A DNA stretch of 34,523 nucleotides from Microcoleus sp. FACHB-DQ6. GTDB lineage: Bacteria; Cyanobacteriota; Cyanobacteriia; Cyanobacteriales; Microcoleaceae. The notes under the pieces were generated by a model. That model searched no databases, was not told where the DNA came from, and worked only from the letters and a program-made list of their open reading frames with translations. Position numbers and translations under genes: made by a program. The stretch spans positions 1 through 34,523 of the forward strand of contig JACJNV010000081.1 in assembly GCA_014695175.1 (NCBI GenBank). Direction: 5' to 3'. Shown one piece after another: positions 110 to 9,780 of this stretch (positions are counted from its first letter, which is position 1; each line of letters starts with the position of its first letter).

Positions 110-1054
110 CTACGAGACCTTGCTAAATTGTGGAACATTCGCAGACAACCATTCGGCGCGCAACTTTTCAATAGCTAATTCTTTGAATTTAGCTTCTACT
201 TCAATCCAAGGAGCCTGATAATAACAATTAGGCATTTCTGTAATTAAATCGCTGTGGCGCGGATCGGCAAAAAATTCTCTGCCATTGGATATGTGAACTA
301 ATTGCGATTCAGGAACCGACCAAGTTGTGCGGGCTGCTTCGAGCATTTCGGCAACACTGGGGTCGTCATAACTTTCTAAATGTTCGTGAATGACGTGGTG
401 GTGGGCGTCAAAAACCATTGGTACGCCAGTATCAAGACAAACTTCTAAAATTTCCGAAGAACTGTAAGCGTATTCGTCATTTTCAAAGGTTAAGCGCGAT
501 CGAATTGATTCTGGCAAGTCGCGGATGACTGATTTGAGCTGCGAACTGCGATCGCTCTTGCCGCCGTGAATGTTCATCAGTGCCTCTGGCGATCGGGGCT
601 GTCCCAACATATCTAAAATTAAAGCATGAGTGGCGAGAATTTTAATGCTGTTTTCAACCACAGAAAGCTTGTCGGAACTTAGGACGACAAATTGATCTGG
701 GTGGAGTACCAAGCGGATGCCCAAAGAAAGAGCGCGATCGCCCGTCTTTTGCAATTCCTCGGTCATGGAGTGTAGCACTGCTTCCCCCAAATCTGTATCT
801 GCAAAAGGGAACAGTGCGGAAGTCATGCGGTAGAGCTTAATTTGATTAGCACAACAGAAGTCGATCGCTTTGTCAAGCCGCTTTAAGTTGTCTGTATAAA
901 GCTCGCGCAATACTGTTTCTTGTTCAGTTTCCGAAAGCTGTAAAAGTCGCTTCCGCGTCACAGTGCGAAAGCGCACTGCATCGGATGTTGTAATGCAGAC
1001 TAGCCCCAATTCCGGCAATTTTTCCTGTTCCAATACTTGGTTAATCCCGCTCAT
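110..1054 (-). CDS. uvsE: UV damage endonuclease UvsE/UvdE
   Basis: 314 residues, the usual length for this TIM-barrel family. The enzyme nicks DNA 5' of cyclobutane dimers and 6-4 photoproducts and starts alternative excision repair without UvrABC. The N-terminus has the family's LGLVCIT...RFRT.T core (residues 17-33). Probable metal ligands are visible in order: H118 (LHPDQ), H163 (NIHGG), E191 (FENDE), H218/H219 (DAHHH), H254 (VHISNG) and E287 with K289 (EVEAK). These match the three-metal site known from the Thermus enzyme. No strong ribosome site precedes the ATG (GGAA lies about 13 nt upstream). It converges on the IS110 remnant and lies downstream of a small hydrophilic gene on the same strand. 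Such genes are scattered in cyanobacteria and suit high-light habitats. Confidence 0.93.
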   Translation of the reverse strand: MSGINQVLEQEKLPELGLVCITTSDAVRFRTVTRKRLLQLSETEQETVLRELYTDNLKRLDKAIDFCCANQIKLYRMTSALFPFADTDLGEAVLHSMTEELQKTGDRALSLGIRLVLHPDQFVVLSSDKLSVVENSIKILATHALILDMLGQPRSPEALMNIHGGKSDRSSQLKSVIRDLPESIRSRLTFENDEYAYSSSEILEVCLDTGVPMVFDAHHHVIHEHLESYDDPSVAEMLEAARTTWSVPESQLVHISNGREFFADPRHSDLITEMPNCYYQAPWIEVEAKFKELAIEKLRAEWLSANVPQFSKVS

Positions 1055-1499: not shown

Positions 1500-1722
1500 C
1501 TTTTTTTCCTCAATTAGGCTTATGGAACAATTTCTAGCTTAGACTTAGCGGCTGCGGGCGATCGCCTATCTTAAGTCAGAGATCTGCTATACAAGTCTTG
1601 CGGCAGGTTTGACCCATTCCCTCTAACTAATGCCGGTTCGCGGCTGAACCATAGGCAGGTACAGGACAGCGATTTTGGTCAAATATCGGCTCAGCATTAA
1701 CGTCAATCTAGGTATATTGTCC

Positions 1723-4548
1723 TCATTTTTTGACTTTAACAGATTCTATGTTCAAACCGAGGTTGCTTATAATGTGGCGAACATCTTTCTCTGTGATTTC
1801 TTGATGCTTTCCCTTGGCTACAAAGCAAGTTTTGGGCATATCAGCGGGTTTTTGGGCTTTGGCTCCCTGCGGCATCTGAATTTTTGCGATACTTTTACCT
1901 TTGGAAATGTTTGTAATTAGCTCTTGCTTTTTTTGTGGATGCTCAAGCACATTTTCGATCGCAGCGTACTTATTCTCAAAGAAGTCTTTAAAGGCATCTT
2001 TCTTCTCCTCTGGTTCAGGAAGCGATTGCCCCTGAACCAGCATATTTATATTTTCCTTAGCCGTCAGGATATCGCCGATTGGCCCCGTAGCCTCGTGATT
2101 TCCGACAGCTATAGCAGGTAAATCTGGTATTGCTTCCGCCTGAATAATAAATTTTCCTCTCACTGCTGCCATCGCCAGAGTTTTTCCCAATGATTCGGCT
2201 ACCGCATCGTGTAAGGAAGCCAAACGCTCTTCATCTGCTTCTTCCAATTCGGCAATTAGTGTTAGCAGTTTGGAGAAAGGATGATTGCCGTCAGCCAAGA
2301 GTTGGGTGTCGGGATGCAAGTCAGACTCCTGCGATTCGGAGATGGCGCGTTGAAGTTCGCGGGCTTTTTCCTGACATTCCAACAATGACTGAAAATTGCT
2401 CTCTACTCGATGGGCGATCGCTAAAACTCGTTCCAGAACCCTCAAAGCAGAGTCGCGGACAAGAGCGATCGCACTTTTTTGCTTCTCGGCAAAATCAACA
2501 CGCTCAAGTACAGACTTGATATCTGCTAAAGAACCAATTTCCTCAGCCTTCAGCATTGGCGATACTGCCAAATATTCAGCCAGTTCTAGCGCCTTGTCGC
2601 GAAGCTGAATAAAGTTTTTACCGGAATCGTCAAGTTCTTGAATCAGCTTTTGACATATAGGTATACCAGGGTAAAGCAACTTTCCACTCGCCTCTGACAG
2701 CCGTGCCTCCACTTGGGAAAAAACATCTTCTAGTGCGGTGAGTTGTTTCAGTAAGTCTGCTGAATTGTGTTCCATCGGTTTAATCACTCCATTCAAGTTA
2801 TTTTCTCTCAGTTCGGCAATGTGGAAATTATGCTCATTCAAATTTGCATAATTCAGATTTTTTTCACTTCCCTCGGCACTGGACAGATAAGTCTCAGCCA
2901 ATATTGTTTGTTGTATATTTGATTCTTCTATGAAATTGTTAGAAGGAATTAATGGTTCGGTCATATTAGCTATCTCAACTATTTTATCACCTACAGGCTC
3001 TTGTAAGAAAGTGTCGCAATGGCTGCGAGACAAGTTTTCTGAAATGTTGAACAGTCTGGGCTGCATCGGTTGGGGGATCGATCTTTTTGTGTGAGTTTGG
3101 TCAATTGCTGTCGGGCGAATATAATCTTCTAGCAATGTGCTGCGACGCTGCGATCGCAACTTTTTCAAAGCCTCACCCTCAATTTGCCGAATCCGTTCGC
3201 GGGTAACATCAAATATATTGCCGATTTCCTGTAGACTTTTCTCACAGCCGTCATCCAAGCCGAATCGCATCCGCATAACCTCACGTTCGCGCGAACTGAG
3301 GGTGTTTAAAACTCTTTCTATGTCTCGCAGCCTGTTAATGTTGAAAATGTAATCTTCTGGTGTTTCCCCATCGAATTCAATCAACTCTCCCAATGTACAA
3401 TCTTCGTCCTCACCCATTGGAGTATCTAAGGAAATGATCGGTTTATCCGATTGAATAACCAAGGGCAACTTTTTAGTAATTTTGCCCCACAAGTGAACAG
3501 GTAGTCGGATGGTACGGGAATGGTTGTAAATCGCCCGCGTAATTTCCTGACGAATCCACCAATATGCGTAGGTGGAAAACCTGTAGCCCTTCGTGCAATC
3601 AAACTTTTCTACAGCCCTGATTAAACCGAGATTTCCCTCCTGAATCAAGTCTAAGAAATCCAGCCCTCTATTTTGATATTTTTTAGCAATTGAGACTACC
3701 AGCCGCAAGTTAGACTCTACCATTTTGTCTTTCGCTTTTCGGCTGCCCTCTAATTCTAACTCAGCAATTTTTCGAGCTAATTCAATCTCTTCGTCAGCTT
3801 TGAGCATGGGAATTCGACCGATTTCTTGCAGGTAAACCCGAAGCGAATCGGACGGTATACGGTCTTCTTTAAATTTTATGCTATCAGGAATGGTTTTATG
3901 CCAAGCTTCATGAAATTCGTCAAAGTTGCTAAAGCCGTGATTTTTATGCAACTGTGCTAATAAAATCTCGAAGAGCATTTTTAAATGAGAGTTTGTCGGA
4001 CTGGCGAATGGGATATCTTTAATATGTTTGACTTTTCCTAATACATCTTTAGATTCATTGCGTTTGTGTTGGCGGCGGTTGATAAGGGATAAAGTCAGAG
4101 TTTCTCCATGCTGAAAAAGAACGATCGCGGGAATCGGTAAAATTTTATTAATCTCGCGGATAATGCCGTCAAGTTGTTCTATAGTGTACGCGCTCCTCCG
4201 CAGTGCGATCGCGAAAAACAAGTAGGAAGTAAAAAAAGCACTCTCACCGCTGCTAGTATCAAATTCGACAAACTGGTCATTATCTGCAATTTCTGTCCCG
4301 GTAAATTGGAAGAGGAAATCAACCGACAGCCATTCCTCTAAGAAAGCTTTTTGAAAGTTTAGCTTTTGATCTCTGTCAAATTCTGCAATAAAATTATCCG
4401 AACTATTAGGTTCGAGCGCATAAATTATATCACTTCGGTAGCCAAGAGTAAAGAACAAATTACGGGCGTTATCGGCAAGTTTTCCCTTGGCAAAACTACT
4501 TAAAGCTTGGTTAATAGATGCTTTGGCTTGTTGTTCGCTGACGCTCAT
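1723..4548 (-). CDS. Chimeric sigma-70 factor: Eco57I-type restriction N-domain + sigma regions 1.2-4 + long helical tail
   Basis: 941 residues in one uninterrupted frame. Residues 1-220 resemble the N-terminal domain of large Eco57I-type DNA methyltransferases that pair with PLD/SNF2 helicases (LGYRS near 35-39, VDFLFQ 76-81, [22 protein letters not shown] 138-159, [10 protein letters not shown] 161-170). No methyltransferase motif follows. Instead sigma-70 begins: region 1.2 about 233-262, regions 2.1-2.4 about 275-345 ([26 protein letters not shown]) and region 4 about 405-470 with a complete helix-turn-helix ([11 protein letters not shown]). Region 3 is about 30 residues shorter than in E. 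coli RpoD. Region 4 looks more like non-cyanobacterial RpoD ([10 protein letters not shown]) than cyanobacterial SigA (LSRERVRQLE, from memory). Residues 480-941 are a linker, pentapeptide-like units (about 562-586) and helical or coiled-coil sequence of unknown family. The ATG overlaps the helicase stop by 4 bp (ATGA), with GGTGA upstream. HIP1 sites inside the gene suggest long residence. Sigma assignment certain; N-domain likely; role unknown. Confidence 0.9.
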
Positions 4549-7500
4549 TTAATCACCAGCCAGGTAATCAGTTCAAAATCCGTTGTTGCTTTAACCTGAT
4601 GCGCTTGCTCAACCAATACTGCACGGCGGCTAGACAGCAGGTGGCCGATGCTCCGCTTCTTGTAAATATCTGCAATTGAATCAACCGCCCGCTTCAGCAA
4701 GTCGTTATACAAATTCATATCAAATCCGTTATTAGTTTGTCGATCGAACAAATTGCACAACTCTTCATAGGGAACAGTACACCCCGCACACAGCAACTGA
4801 TATATTTCAAGTATTTGTTTGGGTTGAGCAAAAGTTAATCGCACTTCCTTATTTTCTCGAACGTAAACTAAAAAGTATGGTTGCAGTGGGTTGACGGTTT
4901 TATTATCAAGACAATCGCCTTTCTGTTTGAGGCAAAAAATTACGCCGGGAGCAATTATCGGGGACTCCGAGTTAGTTGGAACTACTGCATAGAGTCCTAA
5001 AGGGGCATCTTGGAGTAGTTTGCGGTTGCTCTCAATGTATTTGGCTAGTTCCATTCGGAAATCATCGAGAGTGAATTCCGTTAGGGCTACACTCTCAGTG
5101 AAATCTTCGAGATCCAGCACCTCATCTTTCAATCGCAGCAACTGCTTGTCGCGGTATTTCAAATCACTCTCAATCAGTTCTTGAATCTCCTTTGCTTCCA
5201 GCAGGTTATCTTCAAATGTACCAGCCATGTCCGCTAAAGCCATCCGTGCTTCTACTCGATTTTTCAGATTGATGTATTGATCCAAGTCCTCTGTCGGCCA
5301 AAAATTAATTAATTGTACCGTGTGGTTGGGGCTGCCAATGCGATCGCACCTGCCGAACCGCTGGATAATTCGGACTGGGTTCCAGTGTATGTCGTAGTTA
5401 ATCAGATAATCACAATCTTGTAAATTTTGCCCTTCGGAAATACAATCAGTGGCAATTAATAAATCAATCTCGCAGTCTTGCCGCATAGATGGAATTTGGG
5501 CGCGTTTCTTGGCGAAAGGCGAAAAATTTGTCAGGATGTGATTGAACTCGTTTTTGCCAAAGGTAGTCTTATTTGCCACCGATCCCCCTGTCACCAAAGC
5601 TAAGTTAATTTTCAATTCTACTTTTGCCCATTCCCGCAATCCTTCGTAGAGATAGACTGCCGTATCTGCAAAGGCAGTAAAGACTAAAACCTTGCGATTT
5701 GGTTGGCCATGCTTGTTAGTTGTAGGATGCTTAACTTTCTCGGCGATCAGTTCTTTTAACTCAGCCAGCTTGGCATCGCGTTCAACAGAAATGCTTTGGG
5801 CAGAATTGTAAATTTTTTTAAGCTGTTCCTTGTCGCGTTTCAGGTCTTTTAACCAGGTTTCGACATCGAGGTGCGCCATTTTAACTTTTAGCTTGCCAAC
5901 CTCCCACGCCGCTCGTAAATCCTCGTCTTCTTCTGCCTCGAACTCTAAATAGTTGAAATCAATTTCCGCGTTTTCGTCTTGCCAATTCCTGAAGGATTCG
6001 AGTCGTTTTTGTAACTCGGATATTTTGTCAATAGTCCGCTGCATTGTGATAGCGAAGGAATTCACCGAGCTTTCCAGGCGTTTCAAAAAATTAACCTTTA
6101 TCATGCCGATCAGAGAGCGTTCGCGATCGCTCTGTTTGAAGTTTTGCACTCTTTTATTTTCATACACCGAACGGTATGGCGGCAGGACATATTTTGAAGG
6201 GTTGAATAGCGAGAGTTGATATTTAGAAATTTCGCTGTTAAGCTGTTCGTAGGACATGAACTCACCCTTTAGGTCAATCTCAGGAAATACGGAGATGGGT
6301 TTGAGCCGTTCTGGAAAGCCGCCTAATTGGGCGATCGCATCTTTATAGTATTTTTGAATGTGCTTGCGAGATCGTGCGATCGTCAATTCGTCAAGCAGTT
6401 TGAAAAAAGCAGAACTTAGTTCTTCCAGCAGTTCGCTAGTTTTGCGATCGCGACTTTTCGTTGCCCATTTGGTAAATTTCCCCTGAGCATCAGCTAGTGT
6501 ATCGCGCAGACTGGCAATTCCCAGCGACTCCCCAAACGCAGTGTCGCCACCTTCTGTGATAAAATAAAGTTGATTCCGCAAATCCTTTAAATCATTGTTA
6601 ACCGGAGTTGCTGATAAGAGTAGCACCTTAGTTTTGACACCGCTCTTGATAATGTCATCCATCAGCCTTTCGTAACGGCTCTTTCTAATTAGATTGCCAA
6701 ATTCGTCCCGTTTACTCTTGATGTTGTTGCGGAAATTGTGGGATTCGTCAATAACTACCAAGTCATAGTTGCCCCAATTAATCGTTTCTAAATTAATGTC
6801 CCCAGACCAACCGGAATCGCGACTCAGGTCGGTGTGAGATAGGACTGTATAGCTAAAGCGGTCTTTAATAAAAGGATTGATATCGCTATTGTTCTGTGCT
6901 TGATATACAGTCCAATTATCGCGGAGTTTTTTGGGACACAGAACTAAAACTTTTTCATTCCGCCGTTCAAAATATTGAATAACCGCTAGAGCTTCAAATG
7001 TTTTCCCTAAACCAACGCTGTCAGCAATAATACACCCGTTATATCGTCGGATTTTATTGATGGCGGCCTTAACTCCGTCTTTTTGAAATTCAAATAGAGA
7101 TTTCCAGATTTCTGTATCAAATAGGTGTAGCTGTTCGCTTAGAATATCGCTTTTTTCTAGGTCATCTAGAAAAGTCTCGAAGATATGAAACAGAGTTTTG
7201 TAGTAGATAAACTCAGGAGAATTATTCTGGTAAAGTTGCTCTAGGTACAGCAGCACATCTTGTTTGACATCTTCGATGAGCTCGGCATCATTCCAGAGTT
7301 CATCAAACCAGGCTTTAAGGTCGCGGGTATCGCGCTTACTATCTACTTCTAAATTGAGTTCAATATTGTTATATTTCGTACCTAATCCCAGTCCCCGCAC
7401 GGTAAAATTAGAACTGCCCATAATAGCATTTTCGCTTCCGTTATGAGCAATGTGATACATTTTGCCGTGCAGTAAATTAGATTGCTTTACCGACCGTATC

Positions 7501-7844
7501 TGTACTTGTTTCTCAATCCATTCGGCACATTCTTTCGCAACCCGCTTTTGCTCCAACCGATTTTGTAGCTGCAAGCCCTCATCCTCAATTTGGAACGCCT
7601 TTTTATCGGTTTTACTGGGGTCAAGGGACTTGATGAAGCGCGGTTCGCCAAAGAGAAATTTCAAGCTTTTAATACTTAGAAGTTGTTCCTTCAAAGCATC
7701 AAAAGCATAAATTGTAAAGTAAGCAGAAACAATTGACAAGGTTGAGTTTTCCTCAACCTTGGCTTTCAAAAAATCGCCCACAGTGCCGCGGTGGCGGTTG
7801 TCTCTAATTGCCGACTTTGGGAGAGAAGAATCATGCTGTGACAT
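4545..7844 (-). CDS. PLD-like nuclease / SNF2-family DEAD-box helicase fusion
   Basis: 1099 residues. The N-terminal phospholipase-D-type nuclease domain (about 20-200) has one HxK motif (H126, K128 in LLHGKMYHI) and the downstream GSSNF (143-147). A single HKD implies that dimerisation makes the active site. The superfamily-2 motor has Walker A GLGKT (278-282), the motif II box DESH (366-369), motif III SATP (411-414), a long helical insert (about 530-700), then motif IV VFTAF (721-725), motif [10 protein letters not shown] (797-805) and motif [12 protein letters not shown] (828-837). All motor motifs are intact. An AAAGG ribosome site precedes the ATG. In other genomes this helicase type is paired with an Eco57I-like methyltransferase in restriction or phage-defence loci. 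Here its 3' end overlaps the sigma chimera by 4 bp, so the two are co-translated. Domain calls are firm; the defence role is inferred. Confidence 0.93.
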
Positions 7845-7953: not shown

Positions 7954-9780
7954 TCAACTCCGCAAACGCCCTGACCTGAGAATGCTAATAACTAACCACA
8001 AACCCAAAAAACTCGCCGCCCCAAACAAACCCGTGCTCAGAAAAGATAGTTGAGGAGTTTGTGCGTTAGAAGAAATAATTGCCGCCCCCACAATCAGCGA
8101 ACCCACGACAATACTAAAAGAAAGTCGGTTCGCAGAATCCCCCAGAGTGCGGCGCAGCGGATCGAGTTCTTTTAGTGTCAAGTTCCACTTCAAAGTTTCC
8201 GAAGTAACCCGGTCTAAAAGCACTTCCACCTGTCGCGGAGATTGCAAAGATAAGCTTTTCAGATCCAGGGCTGTTCTCAGCAGAGCTTGCACCGGATCAT
8301 CTCCTAATAACTGACGCCGAAACATATCGGTCATCAGCGGTTTCACCTGCTCTACAATATTAAACCGGGGATTAAAAGAGCGCGCCAGTCCTTCCAAATT
8401 CGCTAGAGTTTTTGCATACAAACCGAGATTGCTGGGCAGCCTAATTTTATTTTTGCGGGTGATTTCCAGCACCTCATAAAAAATTTCCGACAAGTTCATT
8501 TGCGACAAGCTGATATTGTAATACTTGCGGAGCATTCGAGCCAAATCGTTTTCTAGATTAACTAAACTTGTCGGCTGAGCAAATTCAGCCATTTCCAAAG
8601 TTAATTGAGCGCAGCGCTGAGCGTCTAAATCGACAATTGCCAGCAACATTTCGGTCAAATTTTGCTGAGTTCGCGGGTCTAATCTGCCGACCATGCCGCA
8701 GTCTAGCAGGGCTATGCGGCCATCTTTGAGATAAAATAAATTGCCGGGATGCGGGTCTGCGTGAAAGAATCCGTCGATATACAACTGCTGGAAGAAAACG
8801 CGGCAAAGCAAGGTTGTAATTTCTTCGCGTTCGGCATTTACATCTCCTTTGTGGCGAATTCCTTGCAAATCGCCTAACAAAATTGGGACTCCGTTCAGCC
8901 ACTCCATTACTAAGAGTTTTTTTGTAGTCAACTCCCAGTTAATTTCTGGTAGGACAACTTGTGTGGGGTCAAACCATTTACTTTTAGATAAATTGCGGCG
9001 CAGTTCGTCTGTGTAGCTGGCTTCTTGAATGAAGTCTAGTTCTGCACGCAGGGCGATCGCAAATTCTTCAGCTAAGGCGACAATATCGTATTGTTGACCG
9101 AAGTCTGTGAGCATCACAAGTTCTGCCAAACCTCGGAGCACGGCGATATCTTGTTCGATGACAATCTCAATACCGGGGCGCTGAACTTTGAGGGCGACTT
9201 CGCGACCGTCTTTTAAAGTAGCTTTGTGGGTTTGGGCGATCGAACCTGCGGCGATGGCTTCGGTGTTAAATTTGGCGAAGGTATCTTCGAGAGATTGTGT
9301 GAGTTCCTTGCGGACGATAACTTCTACTTGCGACCACGGTACGGGCGGTACTTCCGCTTGTAGCGTGGAGAGGATTTCGATGTAGCTGGCCGGTAAAAGG
9401 TCGGGACGGGTGCTCAGCAATTGTCCCAATTTGACAAAAACTGGGCCTAATTCGACGAGGATGTTGCGGAGAACTGCTGGAGTTGGGAGACTGGGTGCGT
9501 CGGTTTTGCGGCCGGTTAGGAGGCTTTTCATGTAGTCCCAACCGTTGCGGAAGACGACCTCTAGAATTTCTCCTTTGCGAGAAGTGTTTTGAACTAGGCT
9601 AAACAAGGGGCCTCCGGGTCGATCGGGTTTAAGGGCTATATAACTACTAGGATAGCGCTGTTGACCGGGCTGACCAGTGTCTTGGGGAATAACTTGGGCG
9701 AAAGGCTGCGATTCCCTACGGGATAGCTTCGCACGCGCGTATTTTGGGGTGTGGGGGCGATCGGTTTTTGGCTTTGGCAT
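7954..9780 (-). CDS. AarF/ABC1/UbiB-family kinase-like protein
   Basis: 608 residues with the family signature: KxGQ (117-120), the Ala/Gly-rich nucleotide loop AAGSIAQ (177-183) instead of a P-loop, ALKVQRPG around K198, HADPHPGN (340-347) and LLDCG (358-362, the DFG equivalent). Two hydrophobic segments near the C-terminus (about 552-600) anchor it in a membrane. The family has ATPase or atypical kinase activity and supports prenylquinone metabolism; cyanobacteria carry several paralogues, so the exact substrate is open. A strong GAGGAG precedes the ATG. The first 50 residues are poorly structured, and part of them is encoded by a dispersed palindromic repeat (9709-9739). The helicase gene follows 109 bp downstream on the same strand, so read-through is possible, though the functions look unrelated. 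Confidence 0.9.
   Translation of the reverse strand: MPKPKTDRPHTPKYARAKLSRRESQPFAQVIPQDTGQPGQQRYPSSYIALKPDRPGGPLFSLVQNTSRKGEILEVVFRNGWDYMKSLLTGRKTDAPSLPTPAVLRNILVELGPVFVKLGQLLSTRPDLLPASYIEILSTLQAEVPPVPWSQVEVIVRKELTQSLEDTFAKFNTEAIAAGSIAQTHKATLKDGREVALKVQRPGIEIVIEQDIAVLRGLAELVMLTDFGQQYDIVALAEEFAIALRAELDFIQEASYTDELRRNLSKSKWFDPTQVVLPEINWELTTKKLLVMEWLNGVPILLGDLQGIRHKGDVNAEREEITTLLCRVFFQQLYIDGFFHADPHPGNLFYLKDGRIALLDCGMVGRLDPRTQQNLTEMLLAIVDLDAQRCAQLTLEMAEFAQPTSLVNLENDLARMLRKYYNISLSQMNLSEIFYEVLEITRKNKIRLPSNLGLYAKTLANLEGLARSFNPRFNIVEQVKPLMTDMFRRQLLGDDPVQALLRTALDLKSLSLQSPRQVEVLLDRVTSETLKWNLTLKELDPLRRTLGDSANRLSFSIVVGSLIVGAAIISSNAQTPQLSFLSTGLFGAASFLGLWLVISILRSGRLRS
9709..9739. repeat. Dispersed palindromic repeat, copy 1 (inside aarF-like gene)
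   Basis: It begins CGATTCCCTACGGGATAG and ends CACGCGCG. It matches 27358-27388 at 29 of 31 positions in the same orientation. The inner ATCCCGTAGGGAAT-type palindrome resembles the small dispersed repeats known in cyanobacterial genomes. Here it is in frame and encodes part of the N-terminal extension of the AarF-like protein (around RAKLSRRESQ). Confidence 0.75.

Follow-up and report, generated by a model that had tools for sequence, protein, structure and literature searches.

The DNA considered here, referred to as the window, is a stretch of 34,523 nucleotides from Microcoleus sp. FACHB-DQ6 (contig JACJNV010000081.1, positions 1 to 34,523, assembly GCA_014695175.1) that carries a pair of overlapping genes. 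Both lie on the minus strand, so that a PLD/SNF2 helicase-nuclease (4545..7844, 1099 residues) comes first in reading order and a truncated protein with a sigma-70 module, the sigma chimera (1723..4548, 941 residues), comes second. As judged from related loci, the catalytic part of an Eco57I-type methyltransferase is exchanged in this pair, behind the methyltransferase's own N-domain, for a SigA-type sigma-70 module and a coiled-coil/ATPase protein. The pair may be a two-gene defence-type system derived from a restriction-like helicase–methyltransferase pair, in which the N-domain would serve for docking, the ATPase as a switch and the sigma module as a sensor, a tentative reading to which we give somewhat less than an even chance. 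A preliminary description of this DNA had correctly placed both genes and their overlap, and had proposed that a sigma protein which keeps the N-domain has taken the place of a methyltransferase partner. This proposal is supported by the present analysis and extends to a second type of helicase and N-domain.

The N-domain and its two kinds of partner

The helicase matches Pfam PLDc_2, SNF2-rel_dom and Helicase_C, and its best PADLOC model is C3a139 'HKD+Snf2' (425 bits). Alignment places a PLD nuclease motif, HGKMY...GSSN, at 7407..7469 and a Walker A motif, DSVGLGKT, at 6999..7022 (both minus strand), and nuclease and helicase motifs are also found in the aligned sigma-type helicases. Of 15 aligned helicases, covering both partner types, 14 show the HxK...GSSN pattern; the exception, L031, is as read without that stretch. 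The helicase stop and the chimera start share the bases ATGA (4545..4548, minus strand), an overlap found in the window and in all seven relatives of its kind with a complete gene (8/8 overall). A search for a conserved promoter 5' of the helicase gave nothing decisive, only about the last 60 bases aligning well. The chimera begins with the N-domain (residues 1-230; 3859..4548, minus strand), which is common to partner methyltransferases. It is followed by the SigA-like sigma-70 module (3109..3858, minus strand), in which Pfam recognises the regions 1.2 (E 6e-13), 2 (E 2e-23) and 4 (E 1e-17) named in the preliminary description, together with a partial, sub-cut-off match to a damaged region 3.

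A search of 291 cyanobacterial genomes with residues 1-229 gave N-domain matches in 13, two of which, the window genome and G123, are of the sigma type. Pfam recognises an Eco57I methyltransferase within the N-domain protein of four genomes (G135, G264, G245, G289); in G015 the recognised part lies beyond an interruption of the gene. The match in G240 is broken, that in G095 is a short frame, and G124 encodes a 1308-residue N-domain protein near a related helicase; G253, G213 and G178 count as hits of the search. The helicases at the same locus in G135, G264, G245 and G015 are 63-73% identical to the window helicase. With regard to the N-domain itself, that of the window is 39-47% identical to the starts of Eco57I methyltransferases and scores 135-194 bits against the N-termini of three of them, compared with a maximum of 33.5 bits in 200 shuffles, which bears out the likeness noticed earlier. 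The claimed lack of a methyltransferase motif also holds, since NPPY is present in all seven partner methyltransferases tested and a motif search found no [NDS]PP[YFW] in the window protein; sigma-type proteins have at most one SPPY, located in the ATPase part. The junctions of the exchange fall immediately ahead of a methyltransferase segment, LNKxFF or TKxFY.

The exchange is seen again with a different helicase and N-domain. In G405 and in the Brasilonema plasmid pBOCT2 (L117), a protein of 2398 or 2401 residues consists of another N-domain, sigma, C1, C2, G and ATPase, and is followed by a PLD/SNF2 helicase that is 28-29% identical to that of the window. A search of 271 genomes with the first 40 residues of this type-2 N-domain returned five matches, one of them G212 itself. 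In G087 and G016 it heads methyltransferases that are of the Eco57I kind by similarity (E values 1e-115 and 3e-106), with N-domain identities of 53% and 43%; the methyltransferase is followed by one or two small genes and then by a helicase that is 69% and, as far as fetched, 65% identical, respectively, to that of G405. The remaining matches, in G266 and G225, are short frames with no methyltransferase. On these comparisons, the exchange keeps the N-domain, the helicase type and the gene order in both cases, and the N-domain type matches the helicase type for the two types. Three loci speak against a fixed pairing: G212 has no helicase in the 19 kb fetched, the contig of G550 ends, and in G568 the helicase precedes a remnant. 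The two N-domain types find no support as one sequence family (hhalign probability 11.8%), and the N-domain of L031/L032 is related to type 1 (hhalign probability 99%). Taken over both types, this is a clear case of a restriction-like pair that swaps its marking enzyme for a copy of the main sigma and an immune-type ATPase, and the coupling of N-domain to helicase type could offer a route to predicting docking domains in other defence systems.

The identity of the type-1 N-domain was also sought among known families and folds. DUF4391 was rejected, as the similarity is weak (16.9 bits against a Pfam cut-off of 29.9); no DUF4391 match over the cut-off was found in 155 genomes, and the two cyanobacterial matches below it are N-domains already known. 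A first structure model of the domain had a predicted local distance difference test (pLDDT) score of 47, and a second one a pLDDT of 67.7 and a predicted template modelling (pTM) score of 0.71. The folds of the N-domain and of the C2-G-ATPase region are left unnamed because the PDB gave no matches: Foldseek with the second model found none at E <= 0.001, and sequence searches with the N-domain (E up to 10) and the C2-G-ATPase region (E up to 0.1) were equally negative.

At the G015 locus (L028, 2693-12814), the methyltransferase N-domain is split: the first ~157 residues lie beside an intact helicase, and the rest, with the methyltransferase, lies about 6 kb away with other open reading frames (ORFs) in between, which looks like an insertion. 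The type-1 N-domain was not found in plasmid records. Viral contigs contained no whole chimera and two N-domain loci; one IMG/VR contig (L168, 720-10312) has a helicase of the related kind (59%) together with an N-domain methyltransferase and two further proteins, of 277 and 574 residues. This contig may stem from a host, or the form with the methyltransferase may be mobile.

Complete copies, probable decay of the window copy and the ATPase body

The architecture from which the window copy appears to have been derived can be read in G123, of the same genus, where an 1882-residue protein comprises the N-domain, sigma regions 1.2, 2, 3 and 4, the domains C1 and C2, a region between C2 and ATPase that we label G, and the ATPase. 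When GTDB contigs were scanned with the ATPase alignment, eight loci came up, with titles naming Microcoleus, Microcoleaceae, Oscillatoriales or only Cyanobacteria. In six of them the gene (1882-2451 residues) is whole and its surroundings are present, and L072 and L073 are cut by contig ends. With G478 (2457 residues), there are seven complete versions of the window's kind, of 1882-2457 residues, all with coiled regions and an AAA/STAND-like ATPase after the sigma module. Their helicases are 90-95% identical to that of the window, or 86% in L069. The sigma-ATPase proteins come in two lengths, 2447-2457 residues (L070, L071, L074, L114) and 1882-1886 residues (L024, L069, L075), the short form being without ~570 residues between C1 and C2.

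In the window, C1 (2140..2763, minus strand), a coiled domain that is also the first domain of sigma-less ATPases, is 87% identical to that of G123, and the open frame ends with C2 (1726..2076, minus strand). Past the stop codon, a degraded remnant of the lost ATPase-side region (1630..1722, minus strand) shows 84% identity to G123 over 31 residues, interrupted by stops, and the remaining ~800 residues, including the ATPase, are gone. Furthermore, sigma region 3 has lost 30 residues in frame relative to G123 at 3474..3475 (minus strand), where the matches 3475-3858 and 3118-3474 skip query residues 129-158. The gene of G511, whose front is cut by a contig end, has the same end point as that of the window and a nearly identical C2 (synonymous divergence, dS, 0.03), with a different and shorter region-3 deletion. 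We read the two as decaying forms of one truncated allele; their sigma parts differ strongly (dS 0.36), which indicates recombination. The window copy is thus probably decaying and no longer working in the way proposed here for the complete copies. The preliminary description, accurate on the pair as such, had missed the truncation, the large ATPase of the complete copies and the SigA-like, fast-evolving nature of the sigma module.

In an order-level survey of 388 genomes with the C2-ATPase region as query, 49 matched at E <= 0.001, and only 15 over the whole or nearly whole region. Seven of these 15 are of the window's sigma type; the domains were read directly in G123, G442, G478 and G469, and G533, G564 and G591 were typed through GTDB records with the same match positions or lengths. 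In three (G405, G212, G550) sigma is joined to another N-domain, G568 retains a remnant that has no sigma, and sigma is absent from G579, G302, G420 and G570.

The ATPase of the complete copies is AAA/STAND-like by its motifs and family matches, STAND denoting signal transduction ATPases with numerous domains. AAA_22 (cut-off 27 bits) is exceeded in G123 (33.4) and L109 (41.3) and narrowly missed in P0005 (26.5); nSTAND matches fall under the Pfam cut-offs. All 18 ATPases aligned show a Walker A pattern, and 14 of them a strict Walker B pattern. As a sigma-less protein, the ATPase body has 1781-1824 residues in cyanobacteria and 1927 in Salinibacter, and it recurs in defence settings: in G302 the gene before it encodes a helicase that scores 1220 bits against PADLOC DruE4; it adjoins a DruE-type helicase in L109, and in Azospirillum (L120) is fused to a pPIWI-RE (PprPIWI, 184 bits) beside PprDinG (381 bits). 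It was matched in 28 of 72,556 plasmid records, and phage records gave no match to the ATPase.

In the ATPase tree, a single clade (98/97) unites all sigma types with G579, which has no sigma, and the DruE-linked kind falls outside it; the N-domain and helicase would therefore have changed within one lineage. This tree omits the Thiodictyon row, an outgroup with which an earlier tree was poorly resolved. Because G579 is nested inside, a strict sigma-only clade is rejected (p 0.003), and the simplest reading would be one gain of sigma and one loss, in G579.

The ATPase in L120 (2143-11913) and L121 (2164-11466) stands at the end of proteins of ~3100-3256 residues annotated as RNaseH domain-containing, pPIWI-RE in L120 by Pfam/PADLOC. 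The sigma-less ATPase is followed by a gene of ~380 residues in L109 (10296-11459), L110 (9966-11117), L111 (10388-11527), L118 (12000-13133) and L119 (11814-12968), whose product starts with WQLPGPSQF (L109, L110), WQLPNPNLF (L111) or WELPGPSQF (L118). Scanning the L109 protein gave nothing in PADLOC and nothing over the cut-offs of Pfam; the gene is perhaps a partner of the sigma-less ATPase. The C1 domain also starts a 583-residue protein with six ChW repeats in L033 (3021-4772; G000:C353), and similar C1 proteins of 582-583 residues occur in G123 and G277.

The sigma module and the possible function of the pair

The sigma part is 71-76% identical to SigA-type sigmas in the six genomes compared and falls inside the SigA clade (100/99). 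The median ratios of non-synonymous to synonymous divergence (dN/dS) over the seven complete copies (21 pairs, without a formal test) are 0.19 for the helicase, 0.28 for the N-domain, 0.45 for sigma, 0.65 for the linker, 0.46 for C1, 0.41 for C2, 0.19 for G and 0.31 for the ATPase. Between G123 and G442, SigA has a dN of 0.0067 and a dS of 0.137, and the chimera sigma a dN of 0.063 and a dS of 0.132; in this one genome pair the chimera sigma has undergone about nine times more protein change than SigA. Neither of the two outcomes that would have refuted the preliminary description was seen: the N-domain similarity turned out to be strong, and the pair occurs in several genomes with a sigma dN/dS below 1.

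Individual residues were followed in E. coli numbering and with their E. coli roles, namely Q406, E407, Y430, W433, W434, T440, R584 and R588. All 23 native sigmas, the divergent paralogue G550_b being omitted, are identical at Y430, W433, W434 and T440. The chimera counts cover 11 distinct proteins with undamaged sigma, some of them from metagenome assemblies, and omit the window, G511 and the duplicate G442. Four of the 11 are altered at Y430, W433 or W434 (Y430H in L074 and L075, both tryptophans replaced by leucine in L069, and W433G in L073), and three others, all type-2 copies, have K or R in place of T440. In the rest of the set, chosen for core binding and the -35 element, Q406 (core-binding) and R588 (region 4.2) are retained in 11/11, and E407 and R584 in 10/11 each. 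The altered promoter-melting residues in four of the 11 chimeras argue against a simple transcription-initiating role. Of the earlier suggestion that restriction-type marking was swapped for control of RNA polymerase, the loss of the methyltransferase stands, and control as the function is conjectural.

In the model that we slightly favour over those in which sigma is an output or a means of recruitment, the giant protein would be docked by its N-domain on the helicase-nuclease of the PLD/SNF2 type, the ATPase would act as an off/on switch as in nucleotide-binding leucine-rich repeat (NLR) and STAND proteins, and the sigma module would be the sensing part. The module would bind whatever SigA usually binds, be it the polymerase core or a protein with which a phage takes over the host sigma, and its engagement would free the helicase-nuclease or shut the cell down. 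Two observations lead us to prefer this sensor or bait model: some copies can apparently dispense with promoter-melting residues and yet retain those for core binding, and the ATPase body is met repeatedly at defence loci. One cyanophage is reported to have gene classes that seem to depend on SigA-type promoters of its host, and T4 AsiA to bind host sigma-70 (PMC5780444); this is compatible with the sensing model and does not test it. A more specific version starts from the integrated decoys of plant NLR immune receptors and would make the chimera their bacterial counterpart, a STAND-like receptor docked on a helicase-nuclease, with the host principal sigma as its built-in decoy; by this analogy, which we consider rather unlikely, phage proteins that seize the host sigma or RNA polymerase would bind the decoy and set off the nuclease. 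Methylation-based marking of self and non-self would then have been replaced by detection of a transcription takeover. How a nuclease-helicase might tell self from foreign DNA without methylation becomes, with this pair, a question that can be tested.

Several findings weigh against the sensor model. The suggested docking of the N-domain on the helicase is drawn from their co-occurrence, and G212 has a complete sigma-ATPase with no helicase in the 19 kb fetched. The flanking genes are not alike on both sides in two of the seven complete copies (L069 has ABC1 only, L071 neither ABC1 nor UvdE). Furthermore, four of the 11 chimeras retain Y430, W433, W434 and T440 together, and changes are more numerous in regions 2.3-3.0, though not significantly so, than in region 4 (permutation p 0.126) or regions 2.1-2.2 (p 0.19); a stronger decay of the promoter-melting regions, for which the direction was as expected, is not supported by these values. 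Repeated capture of sigma from SigA, a possible prediction of the bait model, is likewise not robust. In a first tree, the approximately unbiased (AU) test gave p 0.005 against a single clade of all 14 chimeras and 0.043 against one of types 1 and 2 together, and the signal was lost (p 0.156) once the long, damaged or duplicate rows G550chim, G212chim, G550_b, window, G511 and G442chim were dropped.

The same residues bear on the alternatives. If sigma were the output, an activated ATPase would expose it, and it would direct the polymerase core to defence or suicide genes with promoters of the SigA type. That regions 1.2, 2, 3 and 4 are all present in the complete copies scanned (P0003, P0005) and that the core-binding and most DNA-contact residues are retained fits such a role, which has precedents in CalpL/CalpT/CalpS (PMC12751052) and in ECF-sigma-like fusions (PMC8195603). 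However, the changes at W433/W434 in L069, W433 in L073, Y430 in L074 and L075 and T440 in the three type-2 copies all run counter to it, and the locus shows no dedicated target gene; we regard it as rather unlikely, if the strongest of the competitors. A recruitment role, in which sigma would bring the helicase-nuclease to RNA polymerase or promoters to inspect or cut strongly transcribed foreign DNA, does not need promoter melting and agrees with the full retention of Q406 and R588 and with the tie of the protein to the helicase, by association, through the N-domain. It comes near to what the preliminary description had in mind, offers no visible means of sparing host genes after the loss of the methyltransferase, and is judged unlikely.

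It is quite improbable that the module is an accretion without present use, fused in one ancestor and drifting. Its dN/dS lies above those of the helicase and ATPase, the alleles of G000 and G511 are damaged by differing region-3 deletions, and sigma is missing in G579, which speaks for this reading; yet the sigma frame is open in 11 complete copies from at least five genera, dN/dS remains below 1 and Q406 is kept throughout. Several of the records are metagenome-assembled genomes (MAGs), and an assembly or binning artefact would be a concern if the same architecture did not occur in Microcoleus sp. FACHB-61 (L070, a record not marked as MAG), in the complete circular plasmid pBOCT2 and in several separate assemblies, which makes an artefact extremely improbable.

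Relation to known systems and setting of the locus

The closest known arrangement is the pair of PLD/SNF2 helicase and Eco57I methyltransferase (C3a139 'HKD+Snf2'), with which the window pair shares the helicase family, the partner's N-domain and the gene order; the difference lies in the partner, which here is sigma-70 plus ATPase and has no NPPY methyltransferase. The DrmD-DrmMI pair of DISARM is comparable, but with 160.7 bits the window helicase stays far below the NCBIfam cut-off for DrmD, which is 610. Class 1 DISARM also has the genes DrmA, DrmB and DrmC nearby, none of which turned up when 12 further ORFs, a subset of those in the window, were scanned with Pfam. MzaA of the MZA anti-phage system (NCBIfam NF041931, from which the name is taken) is also a sigma-70 protein and thus a precedent for one in an anti-phage system. 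Against it the chimera scores 263 bits (cut-off 800), with the best match confined to the sigma part. MZA comprises MutL, Z1 and AIPR-type genes, and none of these was present among the same 12 ORFs. Since the window pair falls under the curated cut-offs of both DrmD and MzaA, it is filed as a new variant and a member of neither.

Complete copies share an AAA_22 match, Walker motifs and a multi-domain layout with STAND/NLR-like NTPases (nSTAND, AAA_22), from which they differ in that the sigma module is N-terminal of the ATPase and the nSTAND matches are sub-cut-off. Druantia-type (DruE) and pPIWI-RE (Ppr) loci have a homologous G-ATPase region, in proteins where the searches made found no sigma, whereas in the present system the same protein contains sigma and has a PLD/SNF2 helicase as its partner. 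TRADD-N conflict systems contain fused extracytoplasmic function (ECF)-sigma-like helix-turn-helix modules (PMC8195603), and in CalpL/CalpT/CalpS of type III CRISPR a sigma is linked to an immune switch (PMC12751052). These are ECF-like modules or a separate sigma, unlike the principal SigA-type sigma found here inside a helicase-linked giant protein. Among the matches listed in the open-licence literature, no description of a PLD/SNF2 helicase with a sigma-ATPase was found.

The pair is flanked in the window by UvdE (110..1054, minus strand; Pfam E 1e-65) and, on the opposite side, by an ABC1-type kinase gene recognised by Pfam (7954..9780, minus strand); ten further window ORFs, a subset of those beyond the pair and its flanks, were scanned with Pfam and look ordinary. 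ABC1 and UvdE also stand on both sides of the pair in five of the seven complete copies (L068, L070, L074, L075, G478). Nine genomes that lack the pair were checked at this site: UvdE was not found in G486, G430 and G363, ABC1 and UvdE are on separate contigs in G556, and the other five (G277, G520, G537, G525, G378) have an empty site with an ABC1-UvdE gap of 136-845 bases. Within the genus, 7 of 29 genomes carry the sigma type, two (G000, G511) a truncated form and 20 neither, in a count by C2-ATPase search that copies without that region would escape and that includes some incomplete genomes. On these searches, the presence of the pair is patchy.

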